Shown here: piece by piece, positions 5,977-23,022 of the stretch
Layout of the letters: each line of letters begins with the position of its first letter
Position numbering within the stretch: the first letter of the stretch is position 1
Source of the DNA: Candidatus Lithacetigena glycinireducens
GTDB taxonomy: Bacteria > Coprothermobacterota > HKB111
Length of the DNA: 28,129 nucleotides
Direction: 5' to 3'
Assembly (NCBI GenBank): GCA_018725485.1
Contig: QLUP01000001.1
Coordinates: 1 to 28,129 of the forward strand
The notes under the pieces: generated by a model
Told to the model about the DNA's origin: nothing
What the model saw: the letters and a program-made list of their open reading frames with translations, nothing else
Database searches by the model: none
Translations under genes and position numbers: made by a program

Positions 5977-7116
5977 ATGGAATTATTAAAATTAATGGAA
6001 GGTTGGGATAGCTATAAAACTATCTCAGAAATAAATAAACCAGCCGACTGGGATACGAGGTTAACTAAGTTAGTTGAGTTATTAGCTAATTCTAGTGGTA
6101 TGCCTCGGTACAGACACGAGTATTTACTAAGAGAAGCGATGACTACTTCTGATTTTCCTTTTCTTTTTGGGGATGCATTAGACAGGCAGGTGTTAGCTGC
6201 CTATAAAGCGATCGAACCAGAATGGAAAAGGTATATGCGGATTAGCACAGTTGACCGGCTATTCCCTAATGTAGGAGGGAGAAGGTTTGCTATTGCTAAT
6301 TCAGGTATGGTTTTGGATGAAGTACCTGAAAAAGGCGAATACAAACTTGTTACTAAGGCAGAAACCAGGTATGATGTCTTTGCCAGGAAATACGGAAACA
6401 AATTAGAGATCTCTTGGGAGACCCTTTTGGCTGATGATTTAGGGGCTTTAAAAAACACACCTAATGAGATGGCCTGGCTGAGTGCTAATACCGAACATTT
6501 TTTGGCGGTAAGTGCTTATGCTGGAGATATAGGTACTCATGCTGGTGGTAATCTATATCAAGCCGGCGTTAATGCAGGAACCTTACCTTTAACTATTGAG
6601 AATTTAGAGACAGCTGTGGCGGCTATGCAAGCTTTTAGACATCCTTCCGGGCAACCGATGAGAAACAGACCTAAATATTTGGTGGTTTCCGATGGTGGTT
6701 TGGAAATGACTGCCAGAAAGATTTTAACTTCGGCAGTTCAATCCTTCTTAATTAGGGGAGCTACTGATATGCCAGCTATGCCCGTGCCAACAACTAATGT
6801 TATTTCTCAATATGGATTGGAGTTAATAGTTGATCCCTGGTTATCTATTGTGGGACCAACTGGTTTTACAAGAAGGTCCTGGTATCTGTTTGCTGCTCCG
6901 ACTATGATAGCAGCGATAGAATGTGATTACCTAAAAGGACATGAGAGACCGGAAATCTGTATGAAGGCTTCAAATAAGGTCTCTATCGGCGGTGGAGATC
7001 TCGGGCCCATGACTGGAGATTTTGAATCCGATAATACTCTGTATAGAGTGAGGCAGTGCTTTGGCGCTAACAAGCTGGACTGGAGAGCTACATATTATAG
7101 CAGGGTAGCTGACTAA
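5977..7116 (+). CDS. Major capsid protein (Mu gpT-like, HK97 fold)
   Basis: The 379-residue protein sits where the capsid gene belongs and resembles the Mu gpT-like major head subunits: a helical N-terminus, DFPFLFGDALDRQVLAAY, an E-loop-like stretch (VPEKGEYKLVTKAE), YGNKLEISWETLLADDLG, PKYLVVSDGG in the middle, and GDFESDNTLYRVRQCFG near the end, where capsid proteins of this type end in a beta strand. It has a perfect AGGAGGT site. No N-terminal propeptide of the HK97 type is evident, consistent with a separate scaffold in the preceding protease gene. A strong hairpin follows the stop. Confidence 0.9.
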   Translation: MELLKLMEGWDSYKTISEINKPADWDTRLTKLVELLANSSGMPRYRHEYLLREAMTTSDFPFLFGDALDRQVLAAYKAIEPEWKRYMRISTVDRLFPNVGGRRFAIANSGMVLDEVPEKGEYKLVTKAETRYDVFARKYGNKLEISWETLLADDLGALKNTPNEMAWLSANTEHFLAVSAYAGDIGTHAGGNLYQAGVNAGTLPLTIENLETAVAAMQAFRHPSGQPMRNRPKYLVVSDGGLEMTARKILTSAVQSFLIRGATDMPAMPVPTTNVISQYGLELIVDPWLSIVGPTGFTRRSWYLFAAPTMIAAIECDYLKGHERPEICMKASNKVSIGGGDLGPMTGDFESDNTLYRVRQCFGANKLDWRATYYSRVAD

Positions 7117-7127
7117 GGGACAATTAC

Positions 7128-7149
7128 GGGGGGTTGGCGCCGATCCCCC
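7128..7149 (+). promoter_or_regulatory. Strong RNA hairpin after the capsid gene
   Basis: Arms 7128-7135 (GGGGGGTT) and 7142-7149 (GATCCCCC) pair over 8 positions, two of them G-U, around the loop GGCGCC. It lies 11 bases after the capsid stop and 19 bases before the next start. There is no T run, so it is not a standard intrinsic terminator. It could stabilise capsid mRNA or lower expression of the following joining genes. Confidence 0.6.
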
Positions 7150-7168
7150 AGTAGCAATGGAGTAAGAA

Positions 7169-7471
7169 GTGACTAATATTGAGAGAGTAAGGCTTTTAAT
7201 AGGTGATATAACGACACCACCTTATTATTCAGATATCAGGATAAGTGAGTTTTTATCTATTGCTGATAATTCCTTGTTTTTAGCTTCTGCTCTGGCTCTG
7301 CAGGCCTGGGCAGGTGCTCTGTCTGATTCTATGGACAGTGAGAAGATAGGGGATTATTCCTTTTCCAAAAAACAAGTAGAGAACAAGCTGGCACTGGCTG
7401 AATTATATCTGAAGAAGGAAAGTGAAACTCCAGCAGTAGCCTGGGCTTCTTTTAATCTCACTGGAGAATAG
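7169..7471 (+). CDS. Head-tail connector (gp6/gp15-like adaptor)
   Basis: A 100-residue mostly helical protein starting at GTG 7169 with a GGAG site. RVRLLIGDI near the N-terminus, then SDIRISEFLSIADNSL and ALALQAWAGA, is the pattern of the small DNA-packaging adaptors (HK97 gp6/SPP1 gp15-like) that bind under the portal. Position directly after the capsid gene and before the head-closure gene supports this. The start choice is guided by GVRLLIGD-type beginnings in the family and by the ribosome site. Confidence 0.72.
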   Translation: MTNIERVRLLIGDITTPPYYSDIRISEFLSIADNSLFLASALALQAWAGALSDSMDSEKIGDYSFSKKQVENKLALAELYLKKESETPAVAWASFNLTGE

Positions 7472-7476
7472 GAATA

Positions 7477-7806
7477 ATAGCATATAGAAATTTATTAATT
7501 AATAGGTGCACCATAAGACGATACACCGAGGGCGTTGTTGATGCGTACGGTAATCCGGTAAAAACCTGGGTTAATCACTTAGTTAACGAGCCTTGCCGTT
7601 GGAGTACACCTAAAAACAGAGAAGTTAAAATTGGGGCTGAAGTAGTAATCGCTGACCTTCAGCTATTCCTAAGAGACATATCCATTTCGGAGAAAGATAG
7701 GGTGATCTTAGAGGGTAGGACCTATGAAATCCTGGAAGCAGTTAGAAGACAGGATGGAGTTGGTTCTCACCATGTTGAGGCTCTTTTGAGGGCAGTAATA
7801 TCATAA
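7477..7806 (+). CDS. Head closure / head-tail joining protein, apparent ATA start
   Basis: A clear coding frame fills 7455-7806 yet has no ATG, GTG or TTG. Reading from ATA 7477 gives 109 residues beginning (M)AYRNLLINRCTI, with WSTPKNREVKIGAEV in the middle and DRVILEGRTYEILEAV and SHHVEALLRAV at the end. That ending is typical of head closure proteins (HK97 gp7 / SPP1 gp16-like), where the joining ring seals the capsid after packaging. GGAG at 7463-7466 lies 10 bases before the ATA and AGGA lies 3 bases before it. The frame starts right after the connector stop and ends 4 bases before the next ATG. Either AUA is a real rare start or a base error hides an ATG. Standard gene callers would miss this gene. 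Confidence 0.82.
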   Translation: MAYRNLLINRCTIRRYTEGVVDAYGNPVKTWVNHLVNEPCRWSTPKNREVKIGAEVVIADLQLFLRDISISEKDRVILEGRTYEILEAVRRQDGVGSHHVEALLRAVIS

Positions 7807-7810
7807 TGCT

Positions 7811-8209
7811 ATGAAAATGAATATAGAAGTTAAGCTCAATTTGAAGACTGAAGCAGCAAAAAAGCTTGTGGAAGAAGCCACTCGGTTAGCTCTAAGAGAT
7901 ACAGTAGTAGCTGTACATGAAGATGCTATGCGTGGCTCACCTAAAAAGACAGGCCATAACATGCGTTCTATAGCCTCTGAAGTCTCAGGGATGGGAATGG
8001 TAGCTACCGGAGGAGAGGCTACTCCTGAGAAGGTAGTTGATGATAATAAGTTAGAAGCAGCCTGCTTCTCTACGTCAGGTTATGGTGGATTCCTGGAAAC
8101 AGGGACTTATAAAATGAACGCTCGCCCTTATTTTAAACCAGCCCTGGACAAAAACTTTACTGAAGAAAAGTTTGCTGAAAGAGTAAAGAGGCACTTAGAA
8201 AGAAGATGA
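7811..8209 (+). CDS. HK97 gp10-like neck / tail-completion protein
   Basis: The 132-residue protein has the ending GFLETGTYKMNARPYFKPALD, the signature of the HK97 gp10-like family, plus a preceding MRGSPKKTGHNMRSI segment that also fits (usually P..TG.L..SI). Family members act at the neck during joining. It lies between head closure and tail terminator genes, as expected. The ATG at 7811 follows the previous stop by 4 bases with only a weak ribosome site, so coupling is likely. A second ATG two codons later is possible. Confidence 0.85.
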   Translation: MKMNIEVKLNLKTEAAKKLVEEATRLALRDTVVAVHEDAMRGSPKKTGHNMRSIASEVSGMGMVATGGEATPEKVVDDNKLEAACFSTSGYGGFLETGTYKMNARPYFKPALDKNFTEEKFAERVKRHLERR

Positions 8210-8210
8210 G

Positions 8211-8624
8211 ATGGCGGAAATACCTGATGTAAATGCTATATTCCGTGCTTACTTAGTAACTCAACCAGAGGTTACGAGACTCGTGGGCACGAGGATATAT
8301 TGCCCAAGGTTACCAGAGAATGCTACTTTACCAGCTATTGGTTATTTTGTTAGAGGTGGTCCTTCAGGTAATCCTCACATTCCTCCTCTCTTAACCCCGA
8401 GTTTTCAGGTGGATTGCTGGGCTGATTCTTTACCGAGGGCTCGTGAGGTTTACAGGGCGGTTTATAGTGCCCTGCAAGGAATCCAGGATGTAATAATCAC
8501 AGTTGGTGGAATTAATTACAGGATATTATCTGCCCGTGAGGAAGTTCAGGGGCAGGATTTAATTGAAAATGAAATACCTAATTATAGTCGGGTACTGACC
8601 TTTTTTGAGGTCCAAATATGTTAA
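8211..8624 (+). CDS. Tail terminator / completion protein (DUF3168-like)
   Basis: This 137-residue protein carries the features of DUF3168-type tail completion proteins: an N-terminal helix (DVNAIFRAYLVTQPEV), a G-R-I-Y-C-P-R-L-P strand, PSFQVDCWADSLPRAREVYRAV in the centre (a Q-V-x-C-W-A/S motif is characteristic), and a C-terminal strand with RVLTFFEVQI. It would cap the tail tube and join it to the head. It starts 1 base after the previous stop, indicating coupling. Confidence 0.8.
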   Translation: MAEIPDVNAIFRAYLVTQPEVTRLVGTRIYCPRLPENATLPAIGYFVRGGPSGNPHIPPLLTPSFQVDCWADSLPRAREVYRAVYSALQGIQDVIITVGGINYRILSAREEVQGQDLIENEIPNYSRVLTFFEVQIC

Positions 8625-8644
8625 TGATTAGGAGGTGCTAAAAA

Positions 8645-9013
8645 ATGGCAGATGTAATTTTGCCGGTAACTCAAGGAATTAAGACTGGTGTTTTGGATGT
8701 GGTAAACCATGTTAACTCCCGGGCAGGAACAGCGGCAGGGGCAGGTTTCTTTCTTATGCCTAATGATGGGATGACTGTGTTAGTGTGCGTCTGTGGAGTT
8801 ACGCCCAGGGCAATCAATTTCATCCCTGTTCCTGACAGATTCGGGCGGGTGGAGACCCTAAATCCAACTCCAACCGCAAGCGGAACGAGCATTTTCGGAC
8901 CCTTTTTACCCGAGATCTGGAACAATCATTTAGGCCAGATAAGGTTTCAGGCTGCTGCAGGCGGGTTAGCCACGGATAGATATTTAGCGGTCAGGATTTC
9001 TGACCCGAGATAG
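8645..9013 (+). CDS. Probable structural protein upstream of tail tube, unknown family
   Basis: A 122-residue protein, rich in Gly, Ala and beta-prone residues, with a strong AGGAGG site. It contains NSRAGTAAGAGFFLMPNDG, a short VCVCG strand and the ending DRYLAVRISDPR. Its style (small beta protein, few charges) fits a virion decoration or tail surface protein. Position between the tail terminator and tail tube genes is compatible with a tail role. I do not recognise a family. Confidence 0.62.
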   Translation: MADVILPVTQGIKTGVLDVVNHVNSRAGTAAGAGFFLMPNDGMTVLVCVCGVTPRAINFIPVPDRFGRVETLNPTPTASGTSIFGPFLPEIWNNHLGQIRFQAAAGGLATDRYLAVRISDPR

Positions 9014-9024
9014 GAGGTAAATAA

Positions 9025-9510
9025 ATGACAGTAGCAACAAATGTACTGGTAGGAGTAGCTACCTTATCTTTTAGACATCCAGTTGGTGGTACCTGGGTGG
9101 GAGTTGGCTACACAGAAGACGGCGTTACCTTTGAGTATTCCGCTGACACCGCCGATATTGAGACCGAAGAAGAAACCTTCCCTATTGCACGAGTAATCAC
9201 CAAAGAAACCCTGACAGTAACTTGCAACATGGCTGAGAGCTCTTTAAATAATATTGACAAAGCTATCGCTGGGAGTGTTTTAGCTGGTAACACCATAACT
9301 ATTGGAGGTGGCAGAATTAAGGAAATGAGTATTAGGATAGTAGGTAGGAATCCTGCAGGTTTTGCGAGAACTATTGAGATACCATTAGCCACTGCTACAG
9401 GGACGGTAGGTATGGCATACAGAAAAGGTGCGAAGACGGTGGTGCCTGTTTCTTTTCAGGCACTCAGAGGCGTTGGGCCTGTATGCACCATAACTGATTC
9501 CACTGTATAA
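9025..9510 (+). CDS. Major tail (tube) protein
   Basis: The 161-residue protein matches tail tube subunits by position (before the chaperone and tape measure) and by content: GVGYTEDGVTFEYSADTADIE, an early loop and strand common in tube proteins, followed by ITKETLTVTCNMAESSLNN (a strand then helix) and a beta-rich C-terminus with AYRKGAKTVVPVSFQAL. No sheath gene is present, supporting a long non-contractile tail. Hexameric rings of this protein stack along the tape measure. It has an AGGAGGT site. Confidence 0.85.
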   Translation: MTVATNVLVGVATLSFRHPVGGTWVGVGYTEDGVTFEYSADTADIETEEETFPIARVITKETLTVTCNMAESSLNNIDKAIAGSVLAGNTITIGGGRIKEMSIRIVGRNPAGFARTIEIPLATATGTVGMAYRKGAKTVVPVSFQALRGVGPVCTITDSTV

Positions 9511-9520
9511 GAGAGGTTTT

Positions 9521-9907
9521 ATGGCCCGCAACGAGGAGGAAAAACTTACCAAAGCTGAAATTGAGATTATTCTGGGCGGTAAATCATATTTTGTTAGACC
9601 CCTAGTTATTAAGGAATCCAGAAAGTGGAGAGCTAAGTTTTCTGCTGTTTTGGGAGAATTACCTCAATACACAGGAATAACTACTGATACACCTGATAAG
9701 TTTATGGCAGCTATAAATGCTATGTTAGTAGGTATGCCTGATAAGATAGTAGATCTGGTCTTTGATTACGCTCCAGAATTAGATAGAAAAGAGATAGAAG
9801 CCACCGCTACTGATGCTGAGATGGCTAAGGCGTTCGAACAGATTATAGAGGTTGCCTTCCCTTTAGCACGAAGTCTGGTGGGAGCGATGGGGAAGCTGTC
9901 ACCATAG
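9521..9907 (+). CDS. Tail assembly chaperone, zero-frame product (lambda gpG-like)
   Basis: The 128-residue protein lies between tail tube and tape measure, the standard site of the chaperone. It is a compact alpha/beta then helical protein: AEIEIILGGKSYFVRPLVIKES at the start and DKIVDLVFDYAPEL in the middle. The frame stops at 9905, but the -1 frame is open and clearly coding beyond it, so this is the short form of a G / G-T pair that coats the tape measure before tube assembly. The site GGGGAAG (9889-9895) is the likely slip point. Confidence 0.8.
   Translation: MARNEEEKLTKAEIEIILGGKSYFVRPLVIKESRKWRAKFSAVLGELPQYTGITTDTPDKFMAAINAMLVGMPDKIVDLVFDYAPELDRKEIEATATDAEMAKAFEQIIEVAFPLARSLVGAMGKLSP
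9889..9895 (+). other. Probable -1 ribosomal frameshift site GGGGAAG
   Basis: In frame zero the codons are ATG GGG AAG. Because GGG is preceded by G, the tRNA on GGG can slip one base back and re-pair perfectly; the next codon becomes GAA. It differs by one base from the lambda site GGGAAAG. The slip lies five codons before the zero-frame stop, as expected for G/GT chaperones. The A-site re-pairing is less ideal than in lambda, so efficiency may be low. Confidence 0.65.
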
Positions 9908-10137
9908 GAGAAGTTTATGAATTTATCCTGGCGGAATGGCATCTCCCACCGGAATATATTATAAATAATTGGACGGACGAACTGTTAAGTCTAATGTTAG
10001 ATAAATTGGTAGACAGAAAACAGAGAGAATACGAAGCATTAGCTGGAGTTACAGAAGCTCCTCGGCAGGGTAGAGTAGTGTCTGATAGCGAGTTTTTTAG
10101 ACTTCTTGGTGATAAAATTGAGGTGGTAAAGAATTGA
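9892..10137 (+). CDS. Tail assembly chaperone T-extension, made by -1 frameshift
   Basis: After the slip, the -1 frame runs from GAA 9892 to TGA 10135-10137, adding about 81 residues (81 codons plus stop). It reads EAVTIGEVYEFILAEWHLPP, then DKLVDRKQREYEALAG, and the family-like ending IEVVKN. The EFILAEWHLPPEYI-type start is typical of the T part of siphovirus chaperones. No good independent start precedes it, which favours frameshifting. The full G-T protein would be about 205 residues. In this family the T part binds the tape measure and the tube subunit. Confidence 0.75.
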   Translation, partial: EAVTIGEVYEFILAEWHLPPEYIINNWTDELLSLMLDKLVDRKQREYEALAGVTEAPRQGRVVSDSEFFRLLGDKIEVVKN

Positions 10138-10152
10138 GAGTAGGAGGTTAAG

Positions 10153-11799
10153 TTGGCAATCTCGATAGGAGACGCTCTGTTAAAGCTTGGCTTAGATAAG
10201 ACTGCTTTTGACAGTGATATGAAAAACTTAGATGCCCAAGTGAAAACCTCCATGAAGAAACTCCAGACCGCCTTTAAAGTTGGTGGAGCAGCCATAACTG
10301 CTATGGGTGCCGCTGGGCTTAAATTCGTGTCTGATGCTCGAGTAATGAATGCTCAGCTTGGTCAAACTGCTCTGATCCTCGGTATAACTACCAAAGAAAT
10401 ACGAGATTTGGCTCTGGCTACTGCCGATGTGTCCTTCCCCATCAAGAGTGTTGCTGACACTTTCGAACTACTAAGCAGAGCAGGGGTAAAAAATACTGAG
10501 GACATGAAGGCTAACGCTAAAGCCTTCGATGCCCTGGCTGACGCTACAGGCTCAAGTGCTGAGGTAATAGCTGGCATGCTCATCCCAGCTTTCAGGGTAT
10601 TCGGGAAAGAACTACCAAAAACCTCTAAAGAACTGGATATATTTACCTGGTTAAGCAGAGAGACTACAGTTAATTTAGGTGATTTTAGCGGCATGTTAAC
10701 TCGTCTGGCTCCCCAAATGATCGAAGCAGGAATAAGCATGGAAGACGCTGTTATTGCCTTAGCTGCTTTGGAGGAGAGAGGTATTACCGGAAGAGCGGCT
10801 ATGCGGGAACTAAATGAAGCGATTGGAGAATCAGTTGAGAGAAATATAAGTCTCCATCAGGCTTTAGGCATAACTACCGAGGAGGTTGGCAGGTATAATC
10901 AGCAGATAAGTGAATCTGTAGGAATCACCGATAAATATGCGGCAATAGCTGATAAGCAGTTTGGGATTATGGACAAGTTAAAGCATGCATGGAGTGAACT
11001 TACTTTTGCCGCAGGCTCTTTTTTAACTCCCTTAGAGCCTATCTTAACTGCTATGACTGCCCTGGGGCCAGTGATGATGTTTTTCGGAACAGCTACAGCT
11101 GCAGCTACCATAAAGACCATAAAACATACCGCAGCTTTGATAGCAAAGAAGGTGGCTCTGACAGCCAGCACTGTGGCCATCAAGGCAGCTACTGCTGCTC
11201 AATGGCTCTGGAATGCGGCTATGACTGCTAATCCTATCGGAATAGTTATAGCGGGGATAGCAGCCCTAATAGCAGCTATTATCTTGATAGCCAAGAACTG
11301 GGATTGGATCAGAGAGAAGACTATAAATGTTTGGGAAAGGCTGATGATTTTCTTCCGGGGGATAGTTGAACGGATAGGCGGTATTTTTGCAGGGTTAAAG
11401 GAGATGATATTAAGTCCATTTCGGGCTGCCTTAAGTGGAATAGAGGCAGGGATAAATTGGTTAATTAGACAGTTAAATAAAATCAGTTTTAAGGTACCTG
11501 ATTGGGTACCTCTTCTCGGCGGGAAGACTTTTGGATTAAACATCCCTGAAATTACCTTACCTAAATTTGCCCATGGTGGTTTAATTACCGAACCTACTCT
11601 TCTCTATGGATTGCGTTCTAAGAGACCCTATGCTGTTGCTGGTGAATCTGGGCCAGAAAGAATCTCTCCTATAACAAACTATGCAGGTGCAACTTACATA
11701 ACTCATCTGCACATAGGCACTTTAATTGCTGATGAAGCAGGTTTAGAAAAATTGAGATGGGAACTTCAGAGGATTGACAAAAAGGTAGGGCTGAGATGA
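10153..11799 (+). CDS. Tape measure protein
   Basis: A 548-residue protein starting at TTG 10153 with a TAGGAGG site. It begins with the usual GDALLKLGLDKTAFDSDMK coiled segment, continues with the MNAQLGQTALILGITTKEI and FELLSRAGV region of phage tape measures (TP901 type), and has hydrophobic helices around residues 355-380 that may cross the host membrane at DNA entry. The C-terminus contains AHGGLITEPTLLYGLR and VAGESGPERISP, the usual end block. Length predicts a short tail, roughly 80 nm by the common 1.5 angstrom per residue rule. It ends in an ATGA overlap with the next gene. Confidence 0.92.
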   Translation: MAISIGDALLKLGLDKTAFDSDMKNLDAQVKTSMKKLQTAFKVGGAAITAMGAAGLKFVSDARVMNAQLGQTALILGITTKEIRDLALATADVSFPIKSVADTFELLSRAGVKNTEDMKANAKAFDALADATGSSAEVIAGMLIPAFRVFGKELPKTSKELDIFTWLSRETTVNLGDFSGMLTRLAPQMIEAGISMEDAVIALAALEERGITGRAAMRELNEAIGESVERNISLHQALGITTEEVGRYNQQISESVGITDKYAAIADKQFGIMDKLKHAWSELTFAAGSFLTPLEPILTAMTALGPVMMFFGTATAAATIKTIKHTAALIAKKVALTASTVAIKAATAAQWLWNAAMTANPIGIVIAGIAALIAAIILIAKNWDWIREKTINVWERLMIFFRGIVERIGGIFAGLKEMILSPFRAALSGIEAGINWLIRQLNKISFKVPDWVPLLGGKTFGLNIPEITLPKFAHGGLITEPTLLYGLRSKRPYAVAGESGPERISPITNYAGATYITHLHIGTLIADEAGLEKLRWELQRIDKKVGLR

Positions 11800-12137
11800 G
11801 GTTAGGGCCAAGCTTAACTAACAATTTCCCTTTCCCTAAGTACAGATTCGCCAGAGTTGTATCAGATATAGAAAGTTCTGTCCAGCAGAGAGCCATAGAT
11901 GCCACCTTGCACTACATCATTACCGGGTTAAAAAGGAAATGGACAATATCATTTATTTATCCTAAAACTGAAACTAATATTGTGAATTTGCCAAAGTTGA
12001 GGTTATGGAGGGCACTTAATTTAAAATTATTAGATAAAGACAATGTTTGGTATGATGTTTCCATTATGGACATCACTGAGGAATCTATTCTGAAAGGTAA
12101 ATACTGGCAGGTAGGCTTAATACTGGAGCAGATGTGA
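11796..12137 (+). CDS. Distal-tail-like protein, small
   Basis: A 113-residue protein overlapping the tape measure by 4 bases (ATGA). Pattern: IITGLKRKWTISFIYP, LPKLRLWRALNL, DNVWYDVSIMDIT, then YWQVGLILEQ. It looks like the core beta sandwich of distal tail (Dit) proteins without the extra galectin domain. Position after the tape measure and before the large hub supports it. It would form the ring at the tail end. The assignment rests on pattern and position. Confidence 0.62.
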   Translation: MRLGPSLTNNFPFPKYRFARVVSDIESSVQQRAIDATLHYIITGLKRKWTISFIYPKTETNIVNLPKLRLWRALNLKLLDKDNVWYDVSIMDITEESILKGKYWQVGLILEQM

Positions 12138-14447
12138 ATGCCTGTTAAAGAGTTAAATTATCGGGTTACTTTATTAAAAGAATATAGGGGAGCGCCTGCT
12201 GGGAGTAAAACCTGGCTGGTTGATCCTTTAACCATTACGGGCAATGAACATTCTGCTTATTTCCCTCTCAGAGACGTTTTGAGTAAGTTGCCTTTAGACA
12301 TTAATTTAGCCAGATACGGAATCTGTGATGTACATAGAACTGATGATGGTTTTATCTGCCTGGCGGTAGATGGGACAGTTAAAAGGGAATGGAGAGGAGC
12401 TTTATCTCCTGTCACCGGGGTATATGTTACTCCTCTGGTCTGGGAGGTAATATACAGAACCCTGAAACATCCCGGAAGAATAGTATTAGAGGGTGGAGAA
12501 ATCAGAAGGGCCGATATTAGATTCAGGGATATAAATGGGGTCTGGCATATATTATTTACTGATGTGGTTATACCTAATGACCTGGTATTTACGCCAAGAA
12601 CGATTACCGGAATCAGAATCAGTGTAAAAGAAACCCAGGCCGGTCATCAGAGACCGAGAATAAGGAATTTAGTTTTACACGCCGATACCACTACTCTGAA
12701 AAGTGAGGTGGTCAGTCTCAGGCTATTATTGTCTGCTGAAAAGACCAGCTTAATTCCTCAGTGGGGGTCCATCCAAACAGGAGCTTTTGATATGGTAGTG
12801 AGGGACCCTGGTTGGGCAACTTATCCTTATCAGTTACCGGTGAGATTTGAGGTTGGTTTGCCTGGACTCTCACCAATAATGTTAGGTTTTGTAGACAATT
12901 GGGAGAAAAAAGAAGTTGGCGGAGTTAGATACTGGAAGGTTGACGGTAGAGATGTTCTGAAATTAGCTAAGGAAAATACAACCAGGCCTGACTATCGTTA
13001 TAAATATAGATTAGGGGATTTATTCAGTTATTTGATTAACTTTTTAGGGGTGAGTGGAGTTAATGAAGTTGGACAGGGTAAAGAAGTTAAATGGGCTATG
13101 TTTGATAGAATCTGGGACGATTTAGGTTATATTGCTGCGGCTATACAGGGTAAAATTACCGCCATCGATGACATAATTTACCTGAGACCCATAAGTGGTG
13201 TGGTTGAGTATAATCTTTTTGACAGCGACATAATCGATAGGCCCGAGCAGATAGATGTAGCCGTAAATAAGATAAACATAGAGAGCTCATTTTACGATTC
13301 TCATCATTGGATACTAAATTTAGGTTCTTCCGGTTTCTTTGTAATACAAAGCAACCAGGTTTATAATATAGAAACACCTTATTTTCATATACCCTCCGAC
13401 CCCGATTCTCTTATGTTTGCCGGACTTTTTAGACACACCGGGGAGTTTTATTCAGACAATTATAGTTGGTCTATAATCTCAGCTACTCCTGAGAGGTGTA
13501 CAGTCAGGATAACTACTGCTATCCTGATTAATCCTGGGGCTATTGTCCAAGCCAGAGTCCAGGGAAGAAGTATTAGCAAAAAGAGTATAAGCCGTATAGT
13601 AGAAGATAAAGATAGCCAGTTAATCTGGGGGGAGAGAGAAGCAAGTGTAAAGCTGAAGTTTTTAGAAAGTGGGGTAGAAGTAGAGAATTTAGCCTATGCC
13701 ATACTCGCTTTTTATTCGGGTATTAGTAGGTATAAATTAACTTTAACGCTAAGACCCGAATTAAGGGCTGGAAGTGTTATCAGGTGGAAGGATAGAAACT
13801 TTTTAATTGCTTCAGTAGAACACTCTTTACCCGCCTGTACCACCATTATTGAGATAGAAGAGATTAAGCCTTGGGAGGTGACAGAAAAATTGTTAAGGGA
13901 TTTAAGTGCCTATAAGAGAGTTGGTGTTACGGCTAACAGGTATTATATCGCTGGACACCTGGGAGGCGGTGTAGCTACCACACTGACAGTATCGGCTAAT
14001 ACCATATATGCTATGCCTCTTATCTTGCCGCAGGGGGTAAATATTGATAGATTATTATCAGAGATTACTGTTTTATCGGCTGGTAATGCCAGATTTGGAA
14101 TATATAGCGACGAGAACATACATCCTAGAGACCTGATACTAAACGCTGGAGAAGTCAGCACTGGCTCTACAGGGGTAAGGGAAAGGAGTTTGAATCAAAA
14201 CTTAACTGGCAATAGATTATACTGGTTTGTAATTCATTTTTCAGCTACCCCCACCGTAAGGGCCATAGCCAGAGAATATGTTTTACCTGTTATAGGAGCC
14301 CCTGTTACCTTAGGAGCGGATATTACCCCTTCGTGCTGGATATTAAGCAGGGCCTATGCTGACGGATTACCAGCGATTATGCCTGCTATGACTACGGCTA
14401 ATATTAATATACCCGCCATAGCGGTCAGAATAGCGAGCTATATTTAA
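12138..14447 (+). CDS. Tail hub / tip protein with receptor-binding-like C-terminus
   Basis: A 769-residue protein that begins directly after the previous stop. Residues up to about 590 look like a tail-associated hub: LPVRFEVGLPGLSPIMLGFVDNW, YWKVDGRDVLKLAKENTTR, then RLGDLFSYLINFLGV, and RAGSVIRWKDRNFLIASVEH, a strand-rich segment seen in the hub ring (gp27-like) proteins. Residues about 600-769 form a separate beta module (YYIAGHLGGG ... ILNAGEVSTGSTG ... AYADGLPA) that is clearly related to the end of the fibre gene at 18233. That module is likely a receptor-binding jelly-roll. No lytic enzyme motif was seen. Confidence 0.75.
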   Translation: MPVKELNYRVTLLKEYRGAPAGSKTWLVDPLTITGNEHSAYFPLRDVLSKLPLDINLARYGICDVHRTDDGFICLAVDGTVKREWRGALSPVTGVYVTPLVWEVIYRTLKHPGRIVLEGGEIRRADIRFRDINGVWHILFTDVVIPNDLVFTPRTITGIRISVKETQAGHQRPRIRNLVLHADTTTLKSEVVSLRLLLSAEKTSLIPQWGSIQTGAFDMVVRDPGWATYPYQLPVRFEVGLPGLSPIMLGFVDNWEKKEVGGVRYWKVDGRDVLKLAKENTTRPDYRYKYRLGDLFSYLINFLGVSGVNEVGQGKEVKWAMFDRIWDDLGYIAAAIQGKITAIDDIIYLRPISGVVEYNLFDSDIIDRPEQIDVAVNKINIESSFYDSHHWILNLGSSGFFVIQSNQVYNIETPYFHIPSDPDSLMFAGLFRHTGEFYSDNYSWSIISATPERCTVRITTAILINPGAIVQARVQGRSISKKSISRIVEDKDSQLIWGEREASVKLKFLESGVEVENLAYAILAFYSGISRYKLTLTLRPELRAGSVIRWKDRNFLIASVEHSLPACTTIIEIEEIKPWEVTEKLLRDLSAYKRVGVTANRYYIAGHLGGGVATTLTVSANTIYAMPLILPQGVNIDRLLSEITVLSAGNARFGIYSDENIHPRDLILNAGEVSTGSTGVRERSLNQNLTGNRLYWFVIHFSATPTVRAIAREYVLPVIGAPVTLGADITPSCWILSRAYADGLPAIMPAMTTANINIPAIAVRIASYI

Positions 14448-14455
14448 GGAGAGAA

Positions 14456-14914
14456 ATGAGTGTTTGGTCAACAGTATCCTGGGTTTTTAGGGATGATATA
14501 ACCTCTGCTAAACTGCAGGCAATGAGTAATAATGATTTATACCTGAGAGACAGGCTTCGTTTCCATTATGTAGGCGATGAGACTGAAAGAAGCGTGGCTG
14601 GAACGACGGAAACAGAGATCAAGTTTTTTAGGATGATAAAACATCCTAATGCTTATAACCTGAGGTTACTGAGGTTTTTTGCCGAGTTGAGAGTATCTGC
14701 TGCCTCTACTGGGACTTTAAGGATATACTTAGATGGTGCTGCTTCACCTTCTTTAACTTTAACTACTATAGCCACGGCTTTTGAATTACTAAATGGTTCT
14801 ATAGATGTTTCTGCCTGGGCCGATGGAGTACATACGGTATCTATCCGGTTGTTAAACTCAACAACCGCAACTACCATTAACAGACTTTTGGAATGTTATG
14901 TTGAGGTAGTGTAA
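14456..14914 (+). CDS. Tail appendage protein, beta-rich
   Basis: A 152-residue protein with VFRDDITSAKLQAMSNNDLYLRDRL at the start, a style used by tail fibre bases, followed by beta strands ending FHTVSIRLLNS-like and LLECYVEVV. It probably is a small trimeric jelly-roll subunit. Its stop shares one base with the ATG of the Cys-triplet gene that follows (TAATG), so the two are coupled. The 8-bp hairpin 14846-14853/14860-14867 lies inside it. No family is recognised. Confidence 0.68.
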   Translation: MSVWSTVSWVFRDDITSAKLQAMSNNDLYLRDRLRFHYVGDETERSVAGTTETEIKFFRMIKHPNAYNLRLLRFFAELRVSAASTGTLRIYLDGAASPSLTLTTIATAFELLNGSIDVSAWADGVHTVSIRLLNSTTATTINRLLECYVEVV

Positions 14915-15363
14915 TGAGAATAAGGGAAAAGGCAATAAGAACTACACAACTCAGAGACATAGAATGTGCTACCTGTGAGGTTTGCCAGGCCTGTCAGAAT
15001 TGTAATGTCTGTCAGTCAGCTTTTGGTACCTGTGGTATCTGTATTACCTGCCAATCTTGTAATACCTGTCAGTCCAGGATAACTTGCGTCTTATGTTTTA
15101 GTTGCGAGAATTGTGTTACCTGCCAAATGGAAGCCAGTTGTGGGGTATGTTTTGCCTGTCAATTATGTGTTACGGCTTGCCAGAATAATTTTGGTACCTG
15201 TTCCAGCTGCGTTACCTGCCAGATCTGTAATGTTTGCCAGATCTGCAATGTCTGCCAATCTTGTAATACCTGTCAGTTGAATTTTGGGAGCTGCGGAACT
15301 TGTGTAGTCTGCCAAGTTTGTGCAGCTTGCCAAATTTGTAATATCTGCCAGAGCGGGATATAA
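14914..15363 (+). CDS. Cys-triplet repeat protein 1 (37 Cys in 149 residues), putative radical-SAM substrate
   Basis: After a 17-residue N-terminus (RIREKAIRTTQLRDIE, similar in style to fibre anchor segments), the whole protein is made of C-x-x triplets, 37 Cys in all. Triplets alternate between CQx and CNx/CVx, giving a hexapeptide period. They form blocks of 4-9 Cys separated by short breaks such as AFGT, NFGT, RIT or EAS. There are no other domains, no signal peptide and no double-Gly leader. It lies in the tail operon with a 1-base overlap to the upstream tail gene and is followed by a twin and a radical-SAM enzyme. Candidate roles: beta-solenoid appendage, metal binder, or RiPP-like protein with thioether links. 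Function is inferred from neighbours only. Confidence 0.88.
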   Translation: MRIREKAIRTTQLRDIECATCEVCQACQNCNVCQSAFGTCGICITCQSCNTCQSRITCVLCFSCENCVTCQMEASCGVCFACQLCVTACQNNFGTCSSCVTCQICNVCQICNVCQSCNTCQLNFGSCGTCVVCQVCAACQICNICQSGI

Positions 15364-15780
15364 ATGAGTACTAATATTAGACTTTGTATAACCTGCCAGA
15401 TATGTAATTTATGCCAATCCTGTAATACCTGTCAGGCTTGTGTAGCTGCTCAGCCGAGCTGTGCTACCTGTGAGGTGTGTAATGTTTGCCAGAGTTGTGT
15501 TACCTGTCAGCAGTGTAATGCAGTTTGTTTTAGCTGCAACAGTTGCCAGAGCTGTATAACTTCTCAAACCTGTGGGACGTGCGATAAGTGCTTCACCTGT
15601 CAGAATTGTTTTTCTGACCAGGGTACACCTCCAGTTTGTGCTGCCTGCCAGAGTTGTAATACCTGTCAGGTGTGTTTTGGCTGCCAGAATTGTAACATTA
15701 GCCAGGCCTGTAGCTGCCAGGTTTGTGCAGCCTGCCAGGTTTGTGCAGCCTGCCAGAATTGTTTTATTAGCCCATTTTAA
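15364..15780 (+). CDS. Cys-triplet repeat protein 2 (37 Cys in 138 residues), putative radical-SAM substrate
   Basis: This twin of the previous protein has 37 Cys in 138 residues. Its triplet blocks are broken by longer inserts (CVAAQPS, CITSQT, CFSDQGTPPV, CNISQA), often placing Ser or Ala where a Cys would fall and Gln just after it, as if Cys had decayed. The ATG follows the upstream TAA with no spacing and in the same frame, so the two genes may have been one gene, or readthrough could make a 288-residue fusion. No clear ribosome site separates them, so termination-reinitiation is likely. It is followed 11 bases later by the radical-SAM gene. No known family is recognised. Confidence 0.86.
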   Translation: MSTNIRLCITCQICNLCQSCNTCQACVAAQPSCATCEVCNVCQSCVTCQQCNAVCFSCNSCQSCITSQTCGTCDKCFTCQNCFSDQGTPPVCAACQSCNTCQVCFGCQNCNISQACSCQVCAACQVCAACQNCFISPF

Positions 15781-15791
15781 GAGGAGGAAGT

Positions 15792-17102
15792 ATGGAAGAG
15801 TGTGAAAATTGTTTTACCTGTGAGAACTGCTACACCGACCAGAGCTGCGTAGAATGTCAGGTATGTGTTGAATGCCAGAGTTGTTATACCGCTGAATCTT
15901 GCGATAAATGTGAATCTTGTTTTACCTGCGAAACGGTGGCTCAACCTCACGGTTTGGTACAAAAAACCTGTCAGATTAAGCCTAAGATATATACCAACTC
16001 TTTAACCATCTTTGCTTCTAACGGCTGTAACTTAGATTGTGAGTACTGTTTTTTTAGGGGAACTAAAGACAAAGACAATCTTACCTATGAAGTTGGTAAA
16101 GAGGCGGTAGATTTTCTCTTCTTAGTTTCCGATAGCACTAAACCTGTTTCTATCTGGTTTTTTGGTGGTGAACCCTTCCTTAACTACGAGGTTATGCAGA
16201 AGGTTATTCTTTATGGGAAGCAGAAGGCTAAAAAATATGACAGGCAGTTGTCTTTTGGGGCTACTACCAATATGACCTTACTTAACCAGGAGAGAATAGA
16301 TTTCTGGCATGAGGAGGGTGGTAATCTATTAATTTCTCTTGATGGTTGCGAGGAGGGGCATAATTTCTACAGGAAAGATATATATGGAGAAGGCTCTTTT
16401 GCTACTGCCTGGAACTGGACTGAGAAATGGCTAAAACTAAAGCCTGAAACTTCTATCAGGTTTACCGTAAACCCGGAAACCTTACTTTACCAGATAAAAG
16501 GGCTTAAGTTCTTAGTAGAGTGGGGAGTAAATAATATCGCTATGTGTCCTAACCAGGAATGCGACTGGAGTGAGGAGGATTATAAACTTTATAAAGAAAA
16601 TCTTCTGGAAATAGCTGAGGTGTTTATAGCGAAGTTACGAGAAGGCAGAAGGCTTCTAATCAAACCTTTTGAAGACGGCTTTTCACTACATAAAATAAAA
16701 GGTAGGATGGGAGGAACTCGTTGCGGCACAGGGGGTTATGATGTGGGGGTTGGTGTTGATGGGAAATTATACCGCTGTCATCGTTTTGTTTTAAGAGGTG
16801 AAGCCGGGGAAATAGGCAATGTCTGGGACGGCTTTTCGGAGAAGAGGAAAGAGACCTTGAATTATGATATAAATAAGATACAGGGTTATAATTGCGAGAA
16901 GTGTATGATAAAAGCACGCTGTAATGGATACTGTATAGCCGTAAATCAGGATAGAAAAGGTGATTTATGGATTGTGCCTGAGGAAGTATGTAAGCAGGAA
17001 ATTATACATCAGGAAGTAGCGGATTTTATCCTGAATACTTTGAGAAGTGAGGAAAAACTTTATAATAAAGTGATGGGAAATGAAAATAAAAGTTGTAGAT
17101 GA
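15792..17102 (+). CDS. Radical-SAM/SPASM maturase with N-terminal Cys-triplet domain
   Basis: A 436-residue fusion. Residues 4-46 hold 13 Cys at 3-residue spacing in blocks of 4, 5 and 4 separated by YTDQS and YTAES inserts; Glu replaces many of the Gln seen in the two upstream proteins. The radical-SAM core follows: CNLDCEYC (C79, C83, C86) binds the catalytic 4Fe-4S cluster and GGEP (125-128) contacts SAM. The C-terminus is a full SPASM domain: C311, G324 and C329, then C368-x2-C371-x5-C377-x3-C381 and C400, expected to bind two auxiliary clusters. Such enzymes usually make sulfur-to-carbon thioether or carbon-carbon links in peptides. It has a strong GAGGAGG site. The adjacent Cys-triplet proteins are the obvious substrates. 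No PqqD/RRE domain, peptidase or exporter is nearby. Confidence 0.93.
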   Translation: MEECENCFTCENCYTDQSCVECQVCVECQSCYTAESCDKCESCFTCETVAQPHGLVQKTCQIKPKIYTNSLTIFASNGCNLDCEYCFFRGTKDKDNLTYEVGKEAVDFLFLVSDSTKPVSIWFFGGEPFLNYEVMQKVILYGKQKAKKYDRQLSFGATTNMTLLNQERIDFWHEEGGNLLISLDGCEEGHNFYRKDIYGEGSFATAWNWTEKWLKLKPETSIRFTVNPETLLYQIKGLKFLVEWGVNNIAMCPNQECDWSEEDYKLYKENLLEIAEVFIAKLREGRRLLIKPFEDGFSLHKIKGRMGGTRCGTGGYDVGVGVDGKLYRCHRFVLRGEAGEIGNVWDGFSEKRKETLNYDINKIQGYNCEKCMIKARCNGYCIAVNQDRKGDLWIVPEEVCKQEIIHQEVADFILNTLRSEEKLYNKVMGNENKSCR

Positions 17103-17646
17103 TAACATAGAAAAAGATAAAGAATTAGTAAGTATCAGCAGGGGATTGGAAGATGCTGGAAACATAGTCGCTCTTAATGGATTAGGGAAAATAGATAATT
17201 CTATGATAGAGTTTCCTCCTCCTACTTCTCCCAGAGGTACTATTATTTTACTTCACGCTGATGAAACTGATGGGACTGAATTTTCTAACACTGCAGATGA
17301 AAATATCCTTAAAGGATGGATTTTGCCTGCTAATAATTATGCTAGAATTATTGTGGAGGGGGAAATTAGATATAGAATGCCAAATTTAATTCAGGCTACT
17401 ACCCATACGGTTACCGTCAGGATAAGAGAGGGTGGGATAGGAGGAATAATCAGGAAGACCTTTTTAAGCGGGGTGTGGAGTAGCGTAACTACTGTGGTAC
17501 CCCAACATTTTATCTTTTCGCCTAAAACTTCGCTTGCTGGTGGGCAGGGTTCTCCCACTTCCTTAGTTATTACAGGCCAATTAGGTCTGGCACACTCTGA
17601 CTTTACCATTATGGGGTGTTCTATGCGAGTTTATGGAGTAGTATAG
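17080..17646 (+). CDS. Tail appendage protein, beta-rich C-terminus
   Basis: A 188-residue protein whose ATG overlaps the radical-SAM gene by 23 bases. The N-terminus (KIKVVDDNIEKDKELVSISRGLEDAG) is unassigned; from about residue 50 it is a beta-rich domain (GTIILLHADETDG, RIIVEGEIRYRMP, HTVTVRIREGG) ending in SDFTIMGCSMRVYGVV. The fold style is that of phage carbohydrate-binding or fibre-tip jelly-rolls. The overlap places the radical-SAM locus firmly inside the tail operon. Family unknown. Confidence 0.65.
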   Translation: MKIKVVDDNIEKDKELVSISRGLEDAGNIVALNGLGKIDNSMIEFPPPTSPRGTIILLHADETDGTEFSNTADENILKGWILPANNYARIIVEGEIRYRMPNLIQATTHTVTVRIREGGIGGIIRKTFLSGVWSSVTTVVPQHFIFSPKTSLAGGQGSPTSLVITGQLGLAHSDFTIMGCSMRVYGVV

Positions 17647-18232: not shown

Positions 18233-19537
18233 TTGTCTATTAGAATAAGAGTTAGAAGGGGTCCAAAAGCCAGACTACCAGTTCTTGGAGCTGGCGAGTT
18301 TGGTTTTACTACAGATACTAAGGAAGTATTTATCGGCGACGGCACTGCTAATCACGAGTTAGAGATGACTGCACGAAAAGGTGCGCCTTCTGGTTATGCT
18401 GCTCTAAATGCTGCTTCTTTAGTAGTGCAGAATCCCGCTAGTGCTACTGTAACTGCCGCACCAAATAGCATTGTTTTACGGGATGCTTTTGGTAGGTCCA
18501 AAATAGCAGCTCCCGCTGCTGCTGATGATATTGCTCAAAGAGCTCAAGCGGATGCGGTCCAAACTAATCTTGATATTCATTCTAGTTTAACTATAGCTCA
18601 TGGTGCTGTTTCTGCTGCTATGGCAGGCCGAATAGTAGTTCGGGATGCGAATGCCAGAGCTTCTTTTGCCGCACCCTCAGCAGCAGGCGATGTCGCTATC
18701 CTCTCAACAGTAACTGACCACGCAGCAGCAACTACAGGAGTCCATGGAGTAGGAACTTCTGTGGTCGAAAGTGTAGCAGGTGCTCAGAGTAAAGTAGACA
18801 TACACGGAGCATTAACAGCTCCGCATGGTGCCACTGATGCTGCTATTGCAGGTAGATTAGTCTTAAGAGACGCAGCAGGTCGAGCTAAATTTGCTGCTCC
18901 TGCTGCTGCTGGGGATGCTTTAATAAGAGGTGCGAGGCTAACTGCAGCAGAGATGCCTGATGGACCAATTGGTCTGGTTTTGACAGGTAGAGGACCTGGG
19001 GTTAATCCTGTTTATGAGGCTGCTGATTACCCTAGAAACCTAAAACCTGCTATAGTAAGATGGGCACTACCTGGGTGGTCTGGTGGATCTCGTGATGGTG
19101 TATGCACTGCTAATGTGATTTATTATATTCCCATTTTTGTTTCGGAAACTACTACTTATATAAGAGTTGGACTTTGGGTTCTTGTTGCATCTGCAGGGAC
19201 TATAGATATAAGAATATTTAGTTGGAGAGATGGAGTTCCTCACTCTTTAATCTTAAGCGCAGGAACAGTAGATACAGGAACTACAGGGCCAAAAGAAATA
19301 ATTATTTCTCAAGTATTAACTAGAGGTTATTATTTTTTAGCTTATAGATGTACAGGTACACCTATTTGTGTGGGTTTTAGTGATGATGCTCGAACACCTG
19401 CAGCAATTATGAGAAAACTAGGATGGGGAACTACCGAAAGTGTGTTAACTGTTATGGCTGCATATGCTGATCCTGCTCCTGCTCCAACTGATATTGCTAG
19501 AAATATGTTTGCCGTTCTTGTTTTAAGAGAAAACTAA
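18233..19537 (+). CDS. Tail fibre protein with Mtd-like N-terminus and repeated shaft motif
   Basis: A 434-residue protein starting at TTG 18233 with an AGGAGG site. Residues 1-45 (RIRVRRGPKARLP, GEFGFTTDTKEVFIGDGT) are the tail-attachment domain found at the start of many fibres, including the Bordetella Mtd protein. Residues about 65-245 form an Ala/Gly-rich shaft with three related copies of a block centred on VLRDAxGRAKFAAPAAAGD. Residues about 270-434 are a beta module homologous to the end of the hub gene at 12138. It would bind the host surface. No reverse transcriptase or template repeat of a diversity-generating element was seen. Confidence 0.82.
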   Translation: MSIRIRVRRGPKARLPVLGAGEFGFTTDTKEVFIGDGTANHELEMTARKGAPSGYAALNAASLVVQNPASATVTAAPNSIVLRDAFGRSKIAAPAAADDIAQRAQADAVQTNLDIHSSLTIAHGAVSAAMAGRIVVRDANARASFAAPSAAGDVAILSTVTDHAAATTGVHGVGTSVVESVAGAQSKVDIHGALTAPHGATDAAIAGRLVLRDAAGRAKFAAPAAAGDALIRGARLTAAEMPDGPIGLVLTGRGPGVNPVYEAADYPRNLKPAIVRWALPGWSGGSRDGVCTANVIYYIPIFVSETTTYIRVGLWVLVASAGTIDIRIFSWRDGVPHSLILSAGTVDTGTTGPKEIIISQVLTRGYYFLAYRCTGTPICVGFSDDARTPAAIMRKLGWGTTESVLTVMAAYADPAPAPTDIARNMFAVLVLREN

Positions 19538-19547
19538 CAGGAGGCGT

Positions 19548-20261
19548 ATGATGGCAGAGCAGGGAATTTACCAGATTAAGAATATTTTGAATGAGAAAAT
19601 ATATATTGGAAGTGCGATTAATATTAAGGCACGGTGGGGAATGCATCTTCATCTTCTAAAGAAGGGTTTACATCATAATAAACATTTACAAAACGCCTTT
19701 AATAAATACGGGGAAAATTCATTCAAATATAGTATTCTGGAAATTGTCCAAACACCCGAAGGATTGATCTTATTAGAACAACATTATATAGATTTACTCC
19801 AGCCCGAATATAATAAACGACTGTTTGCTAAAAACAATTTAGGGGTAAGACATACTGAAGAAGTAAAACAAAAAATGGGTAAGGAACGCATAGGGAAACC
19901 TCTCTCGGAGGAACATAGAAAAAAATTAAGTGAGGCCCGAAAGGAATTTATGACTAATCCCGAACACAGAAAGAAGATAAGTGAACTTAATAAAGGAAGA
20001 ATATGCACTAAAGAAACAAGGGAAAAATTAAGTGAGGCTACTAAAAGGACTTGGGCTAATCCTGAAAACAAATTAAATATGCGTAAAAATACAAAGAGAA
20101 AATCATATGACTCTCGTGTTCCTCCTTCAAGGGAGACAAAGCAGAAAATAAGTGAGGGAGTAAAACGATATTATGCTAATCCAGAAAATAGGCAAAAGCA
20201 AAGTAAAGATATGAAACGATATTATGAACAGCGAAATCAAGAAATTAGAGAAGTGAGGTGA
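19548..20261 (+). CDS. GIY-YIG homing endonuclease with NUMOD3 repeats
   Basis: The 237-residue protein begins with GIYQIKNILNEKIYIGSA (GIY and YIG elements), followed by RW (catalytic Arg region), HHNKHLQNAFNKYGENSF, and LLEQHYIDLLQPEYN containing the catalytic Glu. From about residue 98, several copies of a helix-type DNA-binding motif follow (LGVRHTEEVKQKMG, GKPLSEEHRKKLSEA, GRICTKETREKLSEA, SRETKQKISEGVKRYY), typical of NUMOD3. It is a free-standing selfish nuclease inserted between the fibre and the lysis genes. It keeps its own AGGAGG site and does not interrupt a gene that I can see. Confidence 0.92.
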   Translation: MMAEQGIYQIKNILNEKIYIGSAINIKARWGMHLHLLKKGLHHNKHLQNAFNKYGENSFKYSILEIVQTPEGLILLEQHYIDLLQPEYNKRLFAKNNLGVRHTEEVKQKMGKERIGKPLSEEHRKKLSEARKEFMTNPEHRKKISELNKGRICTKETREKLSEATKRTWANPENKLNMRKNTKRKSYDSRVPPSRETKQKISEGVKRYYANPENRQKQSKDMKRYYEQRNQEIREVR

Positions 20262-22413: not shown

Positions 22414-23022
22414 ATGAAAATAGCACGATTATTTGAGGAGAAAGCAGAACCATTGGCAAGCCCGAAATTGCTTACATGTTCCGAAATAAATGTAATTAGG
22501 GCTTGCAATCTAAACAGGCGGTGGCATAGTCGTCTGCCAGAAATCCACTGGTCAAATGTGGTAAGAAGTAAGCACTATATTTGTTACGGAGCGTTCTATA
22601 ATAACGTGGTATATGCTGTTGCTATTTGGTCGTCTCCTGTGGCTGCTAATAGGTTCAAGAACGGAGACACACTTCTTGAACTAAGGCGCATGGCAATATC
22701 GCCTGAAGCTCCGAAGTATACGGCAACATGGATGTTGAGTAGGATGATAAAAGATATTAAAAAACGCTTTCCCAAAATAACAAGGCTAATAAGTTATCAG
22801 GATACAGAGGTGCACAAAGGGACGATTTATGCAGCTGCAAATTGGACAAAATGCTCAGAAACTAAATATATAGATTGGACAACAAGAAAGCGCAAGAGAA
22901 GCGAAGCACAGTCAAAAGCAAATAAAGTGCGATGGGAATACTGTATTGACTGTGCATCTAAAAAGGGATATGTCCCTAAACCCGGAACCATCCGTAGAGA
23001 ATCAAAAAAGCCCATTTCCTGA
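22414..23022 (+). CDS. Mom/GNAT-like putative DNA-modification acyltransferase
   Basis: The 202-residue protein has the layout of the Mom/XF1762-type GNAT group: RACNLNRRWHSRLP near residue 30, a strand with VVYAVAIWSSP, the acceptor strand LLELRRMAISPEAPKYTA, a long helix (MLSRMIKDIKKRFP), then RLISYQDTEVHKGTIYAAANW. In phage Mu, Mom modifies adenines in DNA and protects it from restriction. The C-terminus adds a CIDC pair and a basic tail that might bind nucleic acid. Assignment rests on pattern. A general acetyltransferase remains possible. Confidence 0.6.
   Translation: MKIARLFEEKAEPLASPKLLTCSEINVIRACNLNRRWHSRLPEIHWSNVVRSKHYICYGAFYNNVVYAVAIWSSPVAANRFKNGDTLLELRRMAISPEAPKYTATWMLSRMIKDIKKRFPKITRLISYQDTEVHKGTIYAAANWTKCSETKYIDWTTRKRKRSEAQSKANKVRWEYCIDCASKKGYVPKPGTIRRESKKPIS

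Follow-up and report, generated by a model that had tools for sequence, protein, structure and literature searches.

Cysteine-triplet repeat proteins encoded with a PapB-like radical-SAM/SPASM enzyme in phage tail operons: a probable tail-tip cross-linking module

Among the described systems that join a radical S-adenosylmethionine (radical-SAM)/SPASM enzyme to a substrate, the SCIFF/CteB-type thioether maturases (TIGR03974; PDB 5wgg) act on short peptides with six Cys, and in the CXXX-repeat (TIGR04115) and His-Xaa-Ser (HxsB/HxsC) systems a repeat-rich substrate is encoded beside the SPASM enzyme. PapB of the PapA/PapB (freyrasin) ranthipeptide system (NF047865) joins Cys to Asp at its beta carbon, or to Glu at its gamma carbon, within CX3D/E motifs, nested ones included (PMC9413430). 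Here we analyzed a 28,129-nucleotide stretch of Candidatus Lithacetigena glycinireducens DNA (QLUP01000001.1; the whole stretch is called the window), a contig from a metagenome-assembled genome of 1.24 Mb. Genes for terminase, portal, major head protein, tail terminator, tape measure, fibre, endolysin and holin mark the window as phage DNA, and within its tail operon two adjacent genes for proteins with Cys at every third residue are followed by a gene for a radical-SAM/SPASM enzyme. Comparison with relatives suggests that some bacterial viruses, and probably archaeal ones, carry genes for tail-tip Cys repeats together with an enzyme of their own that most likely cross-links them.

By enzyme model, PapA/PapB is the nearest described system, and the likeness may extend to Cys in a CX3[D/E]-like register. 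The phage module differs in that neither a leader nor a recognition element (RRE) typical of ribosomally synthesized and post-translationally modified peptides (RiPPs) is seen, the putative substrate is a repeat protein of 65–300 residues or a hub domain, and the candidate acceptors include many Gln and Asn. The phage enzymes share the radical-SAM/SPASM fold with SCIFF/CteB, their best solved relative, but form a separate group. Compared with the CXXX-repeat and His-Xaa-Ser systems, model scores are lower (TIGR04115, 111 bits with a cutoff of 350; TIGR03978, 84 bits with a cutoff of 370), the repeat spacing is three and not four, and the substrate would be encoded in a phage tail operon. On the structural side, the T5 pb3, Mu gp44, T4 gp27 and lambda gpJ hubs correspond in fold and gene position to the N-terminal 570 residues of a protein of one relative (L147), whereas the Cys-fused hubs add a C-terminal C-x-x repeat extension that we do not know from solved tail-tip hubs.

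Both the enzyme superfamily and the hub superfamily are known; the novelty lies in their combination as a system and not in the single parts. Since the defining features of RiPP pathways (leader, RRE, peptidase and exporter) were not seen in the module, neither a peptidase nor an exporter gene having been noted among those of the window, and since to our knowledge maturation by a radical-SAM enzyme has not been described for any virus structural protein, we regard the system as new in kind. The open-access papers searched yielded no description of radical-SAM enzymes in phage, virion or tail contexts. In both respects the outcome agrees with the preliminary description of this DNA, made from the sequence alone, which had seen none of these four features and knew of no such combination.

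The Cys-repeat proteins and the enzyme of the window

The window genes described below, from that of the tape measure to that of the Mtd_N fibre protein, lie on the forward (+) strand. Cys-repeat protein A (14914..15363; 149 residues, 37 Cys) begins with a short non-Cys N-terminus, MRIREKAIRTTQLRDIE, and is followed by Cys-repeat protein B (15364..15780; 138 residues, 37 Cys). Each contains 30 C-x-x-C pairs, compared with maxima of 19 (A) and 18 (B) in 10,000 shuffles per protein, and the window has 14 occurrences of a six-fold Cys-triplet DNA pattern that dinucleotide shuffles never produced. The two repeat proteins noticed earlier are thereby confirmed, with a register far beyond chance. The one-base overlaps ascribed to these genes hold for the first junction alone, between the gene directly 5' of the module and that of protein A; the genes for A and B abut, and an 11-nucleotide gap with a GAGGAGG site precedes the enzyme gene, which is itself overlapped by 23 nucleotides by the gene on its 3' side.

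The enzyme (15792..17102; 436 residues) proved to be a full radical-SAM/SPASM protein, as had been proposed. The CX3CX2C cluster motif of the radical-SAM core lies at residues 79/83/86 (16026..16049), FFGGEP at residues 123–128 (GGEP at 125–128), and the Pfam model PF04055 matches with E 3e-14. All seven SPASM Cys (C311, C329, C368, C371, C377, C381 and C400; 16722..16991) are present and invariant in 12 relatives. A feature overlooked in the preliminary description is the N-terminal segment (residues 1–51; 15792..15944), where 13 Cys stand in C-x-x register and form 10 C-x-x-C pairs, with a shuffled maximum of 8. AlphaFold modelled the core well and predicted residues 1–65 to be unstructured, with a predicted local distance difference test score (pLDDT) under 50. 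The closest PDB relative is 5wgg, a 453-residue radical SAM domain protein (E 2.9e-68), and no RRE match was found in the enzyme. The top NCBIfam model was PapB (NF047865) for the window enzyme and for the six relatives tested. In a tree the phage enzymes cluster together, apart from the SCIFF-like enzyme of the host itself (L002).

Two variations of the core were noticed among the relatives. An apparent intein in L152 (5834-8158) splits the radical-SAM gene precisely at the CX3CX2C motif (ECNLR | C...AN | CDYCYA), and the enzymes of L027 (9120-10676) and L151 (6839-8353) have CX3CX3C (CNLSCKYPC and CNFRCAYPC) and not CX3CX2C.

Linkage to the enzyme and fusion to a tail-tip hub

A scan of viral contigs with the window enzyme alone gave nothing, and a two-sequence profile was required, built from this enzyme and that of L027, a relative found via the repeat pattern. 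It retrieved more loci on viral contigs, and two larger profiles added others, giving 16 module loci after de-duplication (the window, L144, L145, L270, L271, L147, L149, L027, L151, L152, L160, L305, L311, L312, L313 and L330). L270 has the same sequence as the viral contig L146, and the L160 enzyme is truncated by the contig end. A free Cys-repeat gene lies 5' of the enzyme gene on the same strand in all 16, overlapping it or separated from it by 9–99 nucleotides (285 in L271). The adjacency that the preliminary description proposed to check among homologues of the window genes holds in every readable locus, and the scans did not find the subfamily without repeats, the finding that was to have spoken against the proposed link.

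In L271 the Cys-rich N-terminus of the enzyme is a separate 86-residue open reading frame (ORF; 8697-8957) between the Cys gene and the enzyme gene. Set against the fused N-terminus elsewhere, this arrangement is, at the level of sequence, a gene-fusion link of the repeats to the enzyme. L271 and L270 are binned as archaea (Brockarchaeota and Korarchaeota, Candidatus Methanodesulfokora, respectively), although the binning of a virus contig is no proof of host. Both have in common with the window the upstream gene (38–45% identity) and both Cys proteins including non-Cys residues: homologues of protein A (L270:5170-5376 and L271:7997-8338) share 'xNIRxxATxTxNxRDxxC', and those of protein B share MSxNIRxCxxCQxC.

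Several candidates from these searches were rejected. Enzyme matches in gut 'Bacteriophage sp.' records (MT83xxxx) have, in the records read, neighbours such as SecDF and RecJ and look like chromosomal SCIFF-type maturases; the other matches to the enzyme profiles in genome collections (L272–L303) are generic SPASM maturases without Cys-triplet ORFs; and most of what the bare Cys-triplet pattern picks up is simple repeat DNA read by chance in a suitable frame. A search of 50,697 phage records with the enzymes of L147 and L174 as queries gave no match at E <= 1e-30, and the sole match of the window enzyme was one distant plasmid.

The most informative relatives carry the repeats twice. Twelve of the non-archaeal relatives have another, larger domain of Cys repeats at the C-terminal end of a tail-tip hub protein, whose gene comes after the tape-measure and Dit-like genes where the contigs include those. 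Residues 11–577 of the L147 hub model match the hubs T5 pb3, Mu gp44, T4 gp27 and lambda J (pb3, Foldseek E 1e-12; many phage hubs matched, with VIA Z scores reaching 10), the confidence of the model being moderate. The Cys domain of L147 begins at residue 575, after a junction conserved in the family, [DE]DLQ[ST]xGxxFC. The repeats accordingly occupy either the C-terminus of a hub of ~570–740 residues or, in the free proteins, a stretch starting near residue 8–18. There are variations: L144 bears the repeats on a 254-residue protein instead of the hub, and the hubs of L330 and L152 have an additional long N-terminal extension. Since the repeats are fused to the hub, the Cys proteins would be expected in virions, and the virion role suggested earlier gains strength; for the free Cys proteins of the window itself that role is proposed by analogy.

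The free ORFs of the window and of the two archaeal-binned loci would also suit another explanation, in which the Cys proteins are modified in the infected cell without being virion parts, for instance as a secreted or intracellular RiPP-like peptide directed against the host or rival phages, the tail operon providing late expression only. Such enzymes do usually make RiPPs. We consider this explanation quite unlikely: most relatives have the repeats fused to the hub behind the conserved junction, the exporter, peptidase and leader of a RiPP pathway are not seen, and the module sits between hub and fibre genes in every locus with readable gene order. Comparison strongly supports both the putative substrate link and the tail-tip position.

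Scans with the N-terminal part of the hub alone gave three outcomes, namely Cys repeats, no repeats and His/Tyr repeats. Hubs with Cys repeats were accompanied by the enzyme unless the contig ended first (L343, L348 and L188), and no such enzyme was found within the available contig DNA of the repeat-less homologues (L355, L356, L357 and L358/L359), so that repeats and enzyme are gained and lost together. The third outcome, L347 (IMGVR_UViG_3300028835_002670, 6001-13761), has a hub 57% identical to that of L147 and ending in [HY]x[DH]xP repeats; two genes past it lies a different radical-SAM enzyme with terminal HGDKP/YGDKP repeats, closest to the dynobactin-type maturase DynA (NF041298; 85 bits, cutoff 450). 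It differs from DynA in carrying these repeats and in that its substrate would be a tail hub. Further on, L347 contains genes for a B12-type radical-SAM protein and a glycosyltransferase, as well as a free His-repeat ORF cut off by the contig end. Read from these sequences, repeat chemistry and enzyme type change together. It is somewhat more plausible than the contrary that a general tail-tip design exists in bacterial and archaeal viruses, in which a hub ending in short-period Cys or His/Tyr repeats and a matching, repeat-bearing radical-SAM cross-linker would give a covalently stapled fibre by several chemistries.

The Cys repeats might instead form a rod that binds metal or Fe-S clusters, like a polyferredoxin or metallothionein and maybe redox-active, while the neighbouring enzyme targets another residue of the fibre or hub. 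CxxCxxC spacing resembles that of cluster ligands, Cys are the most conserved residues, and the hosts are probably anaerobic. Yet the enzyme itself bears the same repeats, and the hub with His/Tyr repeats comes with a radical-SAM enzyme of another, matching kind. Moreover, a second class of phage Cys-triplet proteins (L040, L042, L100, L143 and others), with C-[ST]-[ND] repeats after a 'WxDxNxNxW' N-terminus, had an enzyme of this subfamily in 0 of 20 loci, so Cys triplets by themselves do not bring the enzyme along. We therefore hold a metal-binding rod to be unlikely. The C-[ST]-[ND] proteins share with the module Cys at every third residue and differ from it in N/D at +2 and in the N-terminus; Campylobacter phage vB_CjeM_WX1, rejected as a relative after a weak repeat match, belongs to this class, its Cys-triplet gene lies outside any tail operon in the record read, and its radical-SAM gene is of another type.

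Other Cys-rich loci were seen beside radical-SAM genes. The gut prophage contigs L098, L163, L174, L199 and L262 encode proteins of ~120 residues with a helical-looking N-terminus and CQTCQGCQ repeats, next to a radical-SAM gene; in L174 and L262 a tail fibre gene precedes them and another radical-SAM gene is located downstream. These modules are probably a separate lineage of the same idea, and those of L174 and L199 are the likeliest to be inducible, as their records resemble isolate genomes. In L210 (3502-8677; IMGVR_UViG_3300029305_006592) very Cys-rich proteins of 376 and 782 residues adjoin a 478-residue protein with a CSGFCRYC motif and a weak Pfam Radical_SAM match (E 0.0055). A radical-SAM/SPASM gene of L315 (4154-6861) is followed by one for a 505-residue fibre-like protein whose Cys-rich N-terminus is off the triplet register, and the radical-SAM gene of L328 (8806-10672), apparently chromosomal, by one for a Cys-rich protein with a twin-arginine-like signal.

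Repeat grammar and the proposed cross-linking

In five diverged pairs of Cys proteins, Cys was conserved at 93–100% and other residues at 38–51%, with a ratio of nonsynonymous to synonymous changes (pN/pS) of 0.22–0.41. This selection bears on the suspicion of an artefact, low-complexity repeats of an assembled contig lying by chance beside an unrelated enzyme gene, which the repetitive sequence alone might raise and which simple-repeat false matches in pattern scans illustrate. That suspicion is already contradicted: separate projects yielded independent contigs with the same module, pN/pS stays well under 1, conservation is specific to the Cys, and hub repeats co-occur with the enzyme. We give it practically no weight.

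Over 1,099 triplets the repeats follow the pattern C-[QE]-x-C-[DN]-x. Q/D/E/N occupy position +1 in 67% and, in the whole family, Cys+4 in 79% of 844 cases; S/T/V predominate at position +2. The alternation of Q/E and D/N at +1 (equivalent to Cys+4) is the strongest non-Cys signal. Given the nearest enzyme family, PapB, and this grammar, the most likely bonds would be thioethers from Cys to the Q/D/E/N four residues on.

Because of linkage, fusion and co-variation, we infer that the Cys proteins are the substrate of the enzyme. In the mechanism that we propose, the phage makes proteins with Cys at every third residue: the window encodes two free ones, whereas most relatives combine a single free protein with the C-terminal domain of the hub. 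The PapB-like enzyme from the next gene would modify the repeats inside the probably anaerobic host, while the tail is being assembled or earlier, with no leader and no cleavage, so that the entire protein would be the product. The presumed outcome, and benefit, would be rigidity and chemical stability of a central fibre or adhesin located distal to the hub. That the module gives rise to a tail-tip part covalently cross-linked by the phage's own enzyme is, in our judgement, probable, and the interpretation in the preliminary description, a radical-SAM-modified structural part of the tail, is supported overall.

Several observations weigh against this proposal. The evidence is comparative, and nearly all members are metagenomic contigs. 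PapB scores (247 bits for the window enzyme, 192–281 for the six relatives) all fall below the family cutoff of 340, support for the clade of 13 enzymes is moderate (73/82; strong for the main subgroup), and the Cys+4 residues of the window are mostly Q/N and not the D/E of PapB (PMC9413430). AlphaFold gave no usable structure of the Cys domain (pLDDT 20–35). The Cys proteins of the window are encoded by genes of their own, and the protein in hub position 3' of the tape measure (12138..14447; 769 residues) has no Cys repeats; profile comparison detected no homology between it and the Cys-fused hubs.

The enzyme might also modify the Cys repeats by another reaction. Sactionine links to alpha carbons, epimerization or links to S/T/V at +2 would retain the cross-linking module in all but its chemistry, and are in keeping with the matches to a broad range of SPASM subfamily models (SCIFF, Nif11 and QhpD), the S/T/V-rich +2 position and the predominance of amides among the +4 acceptors of the window. 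PapB as the best model for each member tested and the Q/E, D/N alternation at Cys+4 point instead to thioethers at that position, which leaves the other chemistries as a possible, less favoured variant.

If cross-linking by the phage enzyme is confirmed, this would be the first known case of a virus tail stapled chemically by an enzyme of this type and would place a new covalent chemistry for virions beside the HK97-type cross-links. It would also take radical-SAM enzymes beyond peptide natural products, to repeat proteins as long as 300 residues, and offer a route to very stable protein rods. Homologous hubs with Cys repeats, His/Tyr repeats or none make the link between repeat chemistry and enzyme subfamily testable.

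Gene context of the window

In the window the module lies after the tape-measure/hub region and before the fibre genes. The tape measure protein is encoded at 10153..11799. Directly 5' of the module, a 152-residue protein (14456..14914), the one whose counterparts stand beside the module in L270 and L271, is probably a fibre part. On the 3' side of the enzyme gene, a 188-residue protein (17080..17646) bears a fibre-like 'EDAGNIVALNGLGKIDNSMI' motif, found also in the post-enzyme genes of L308 and L330, and a fibre protein with an Mtd_N domain follows (18233..19537).

A genome of the same genus (G001; contigs C31 and C275, equal to L338 and L337) contains a phage with a 79%-identical major head protein and another tape measure and tail tip. 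No Cys triplets were found in that phage, its contigs being short and the comparison hence merely suggestive. Returning to the window, a GIY-YIG homing endonuclease gene (19548-20261) lies immediately 3' of the Mtd_N fibre gene, and a Mom-like DNA modification protein (phrog_1384, E 3e-23) is encoded at 22414-23022.

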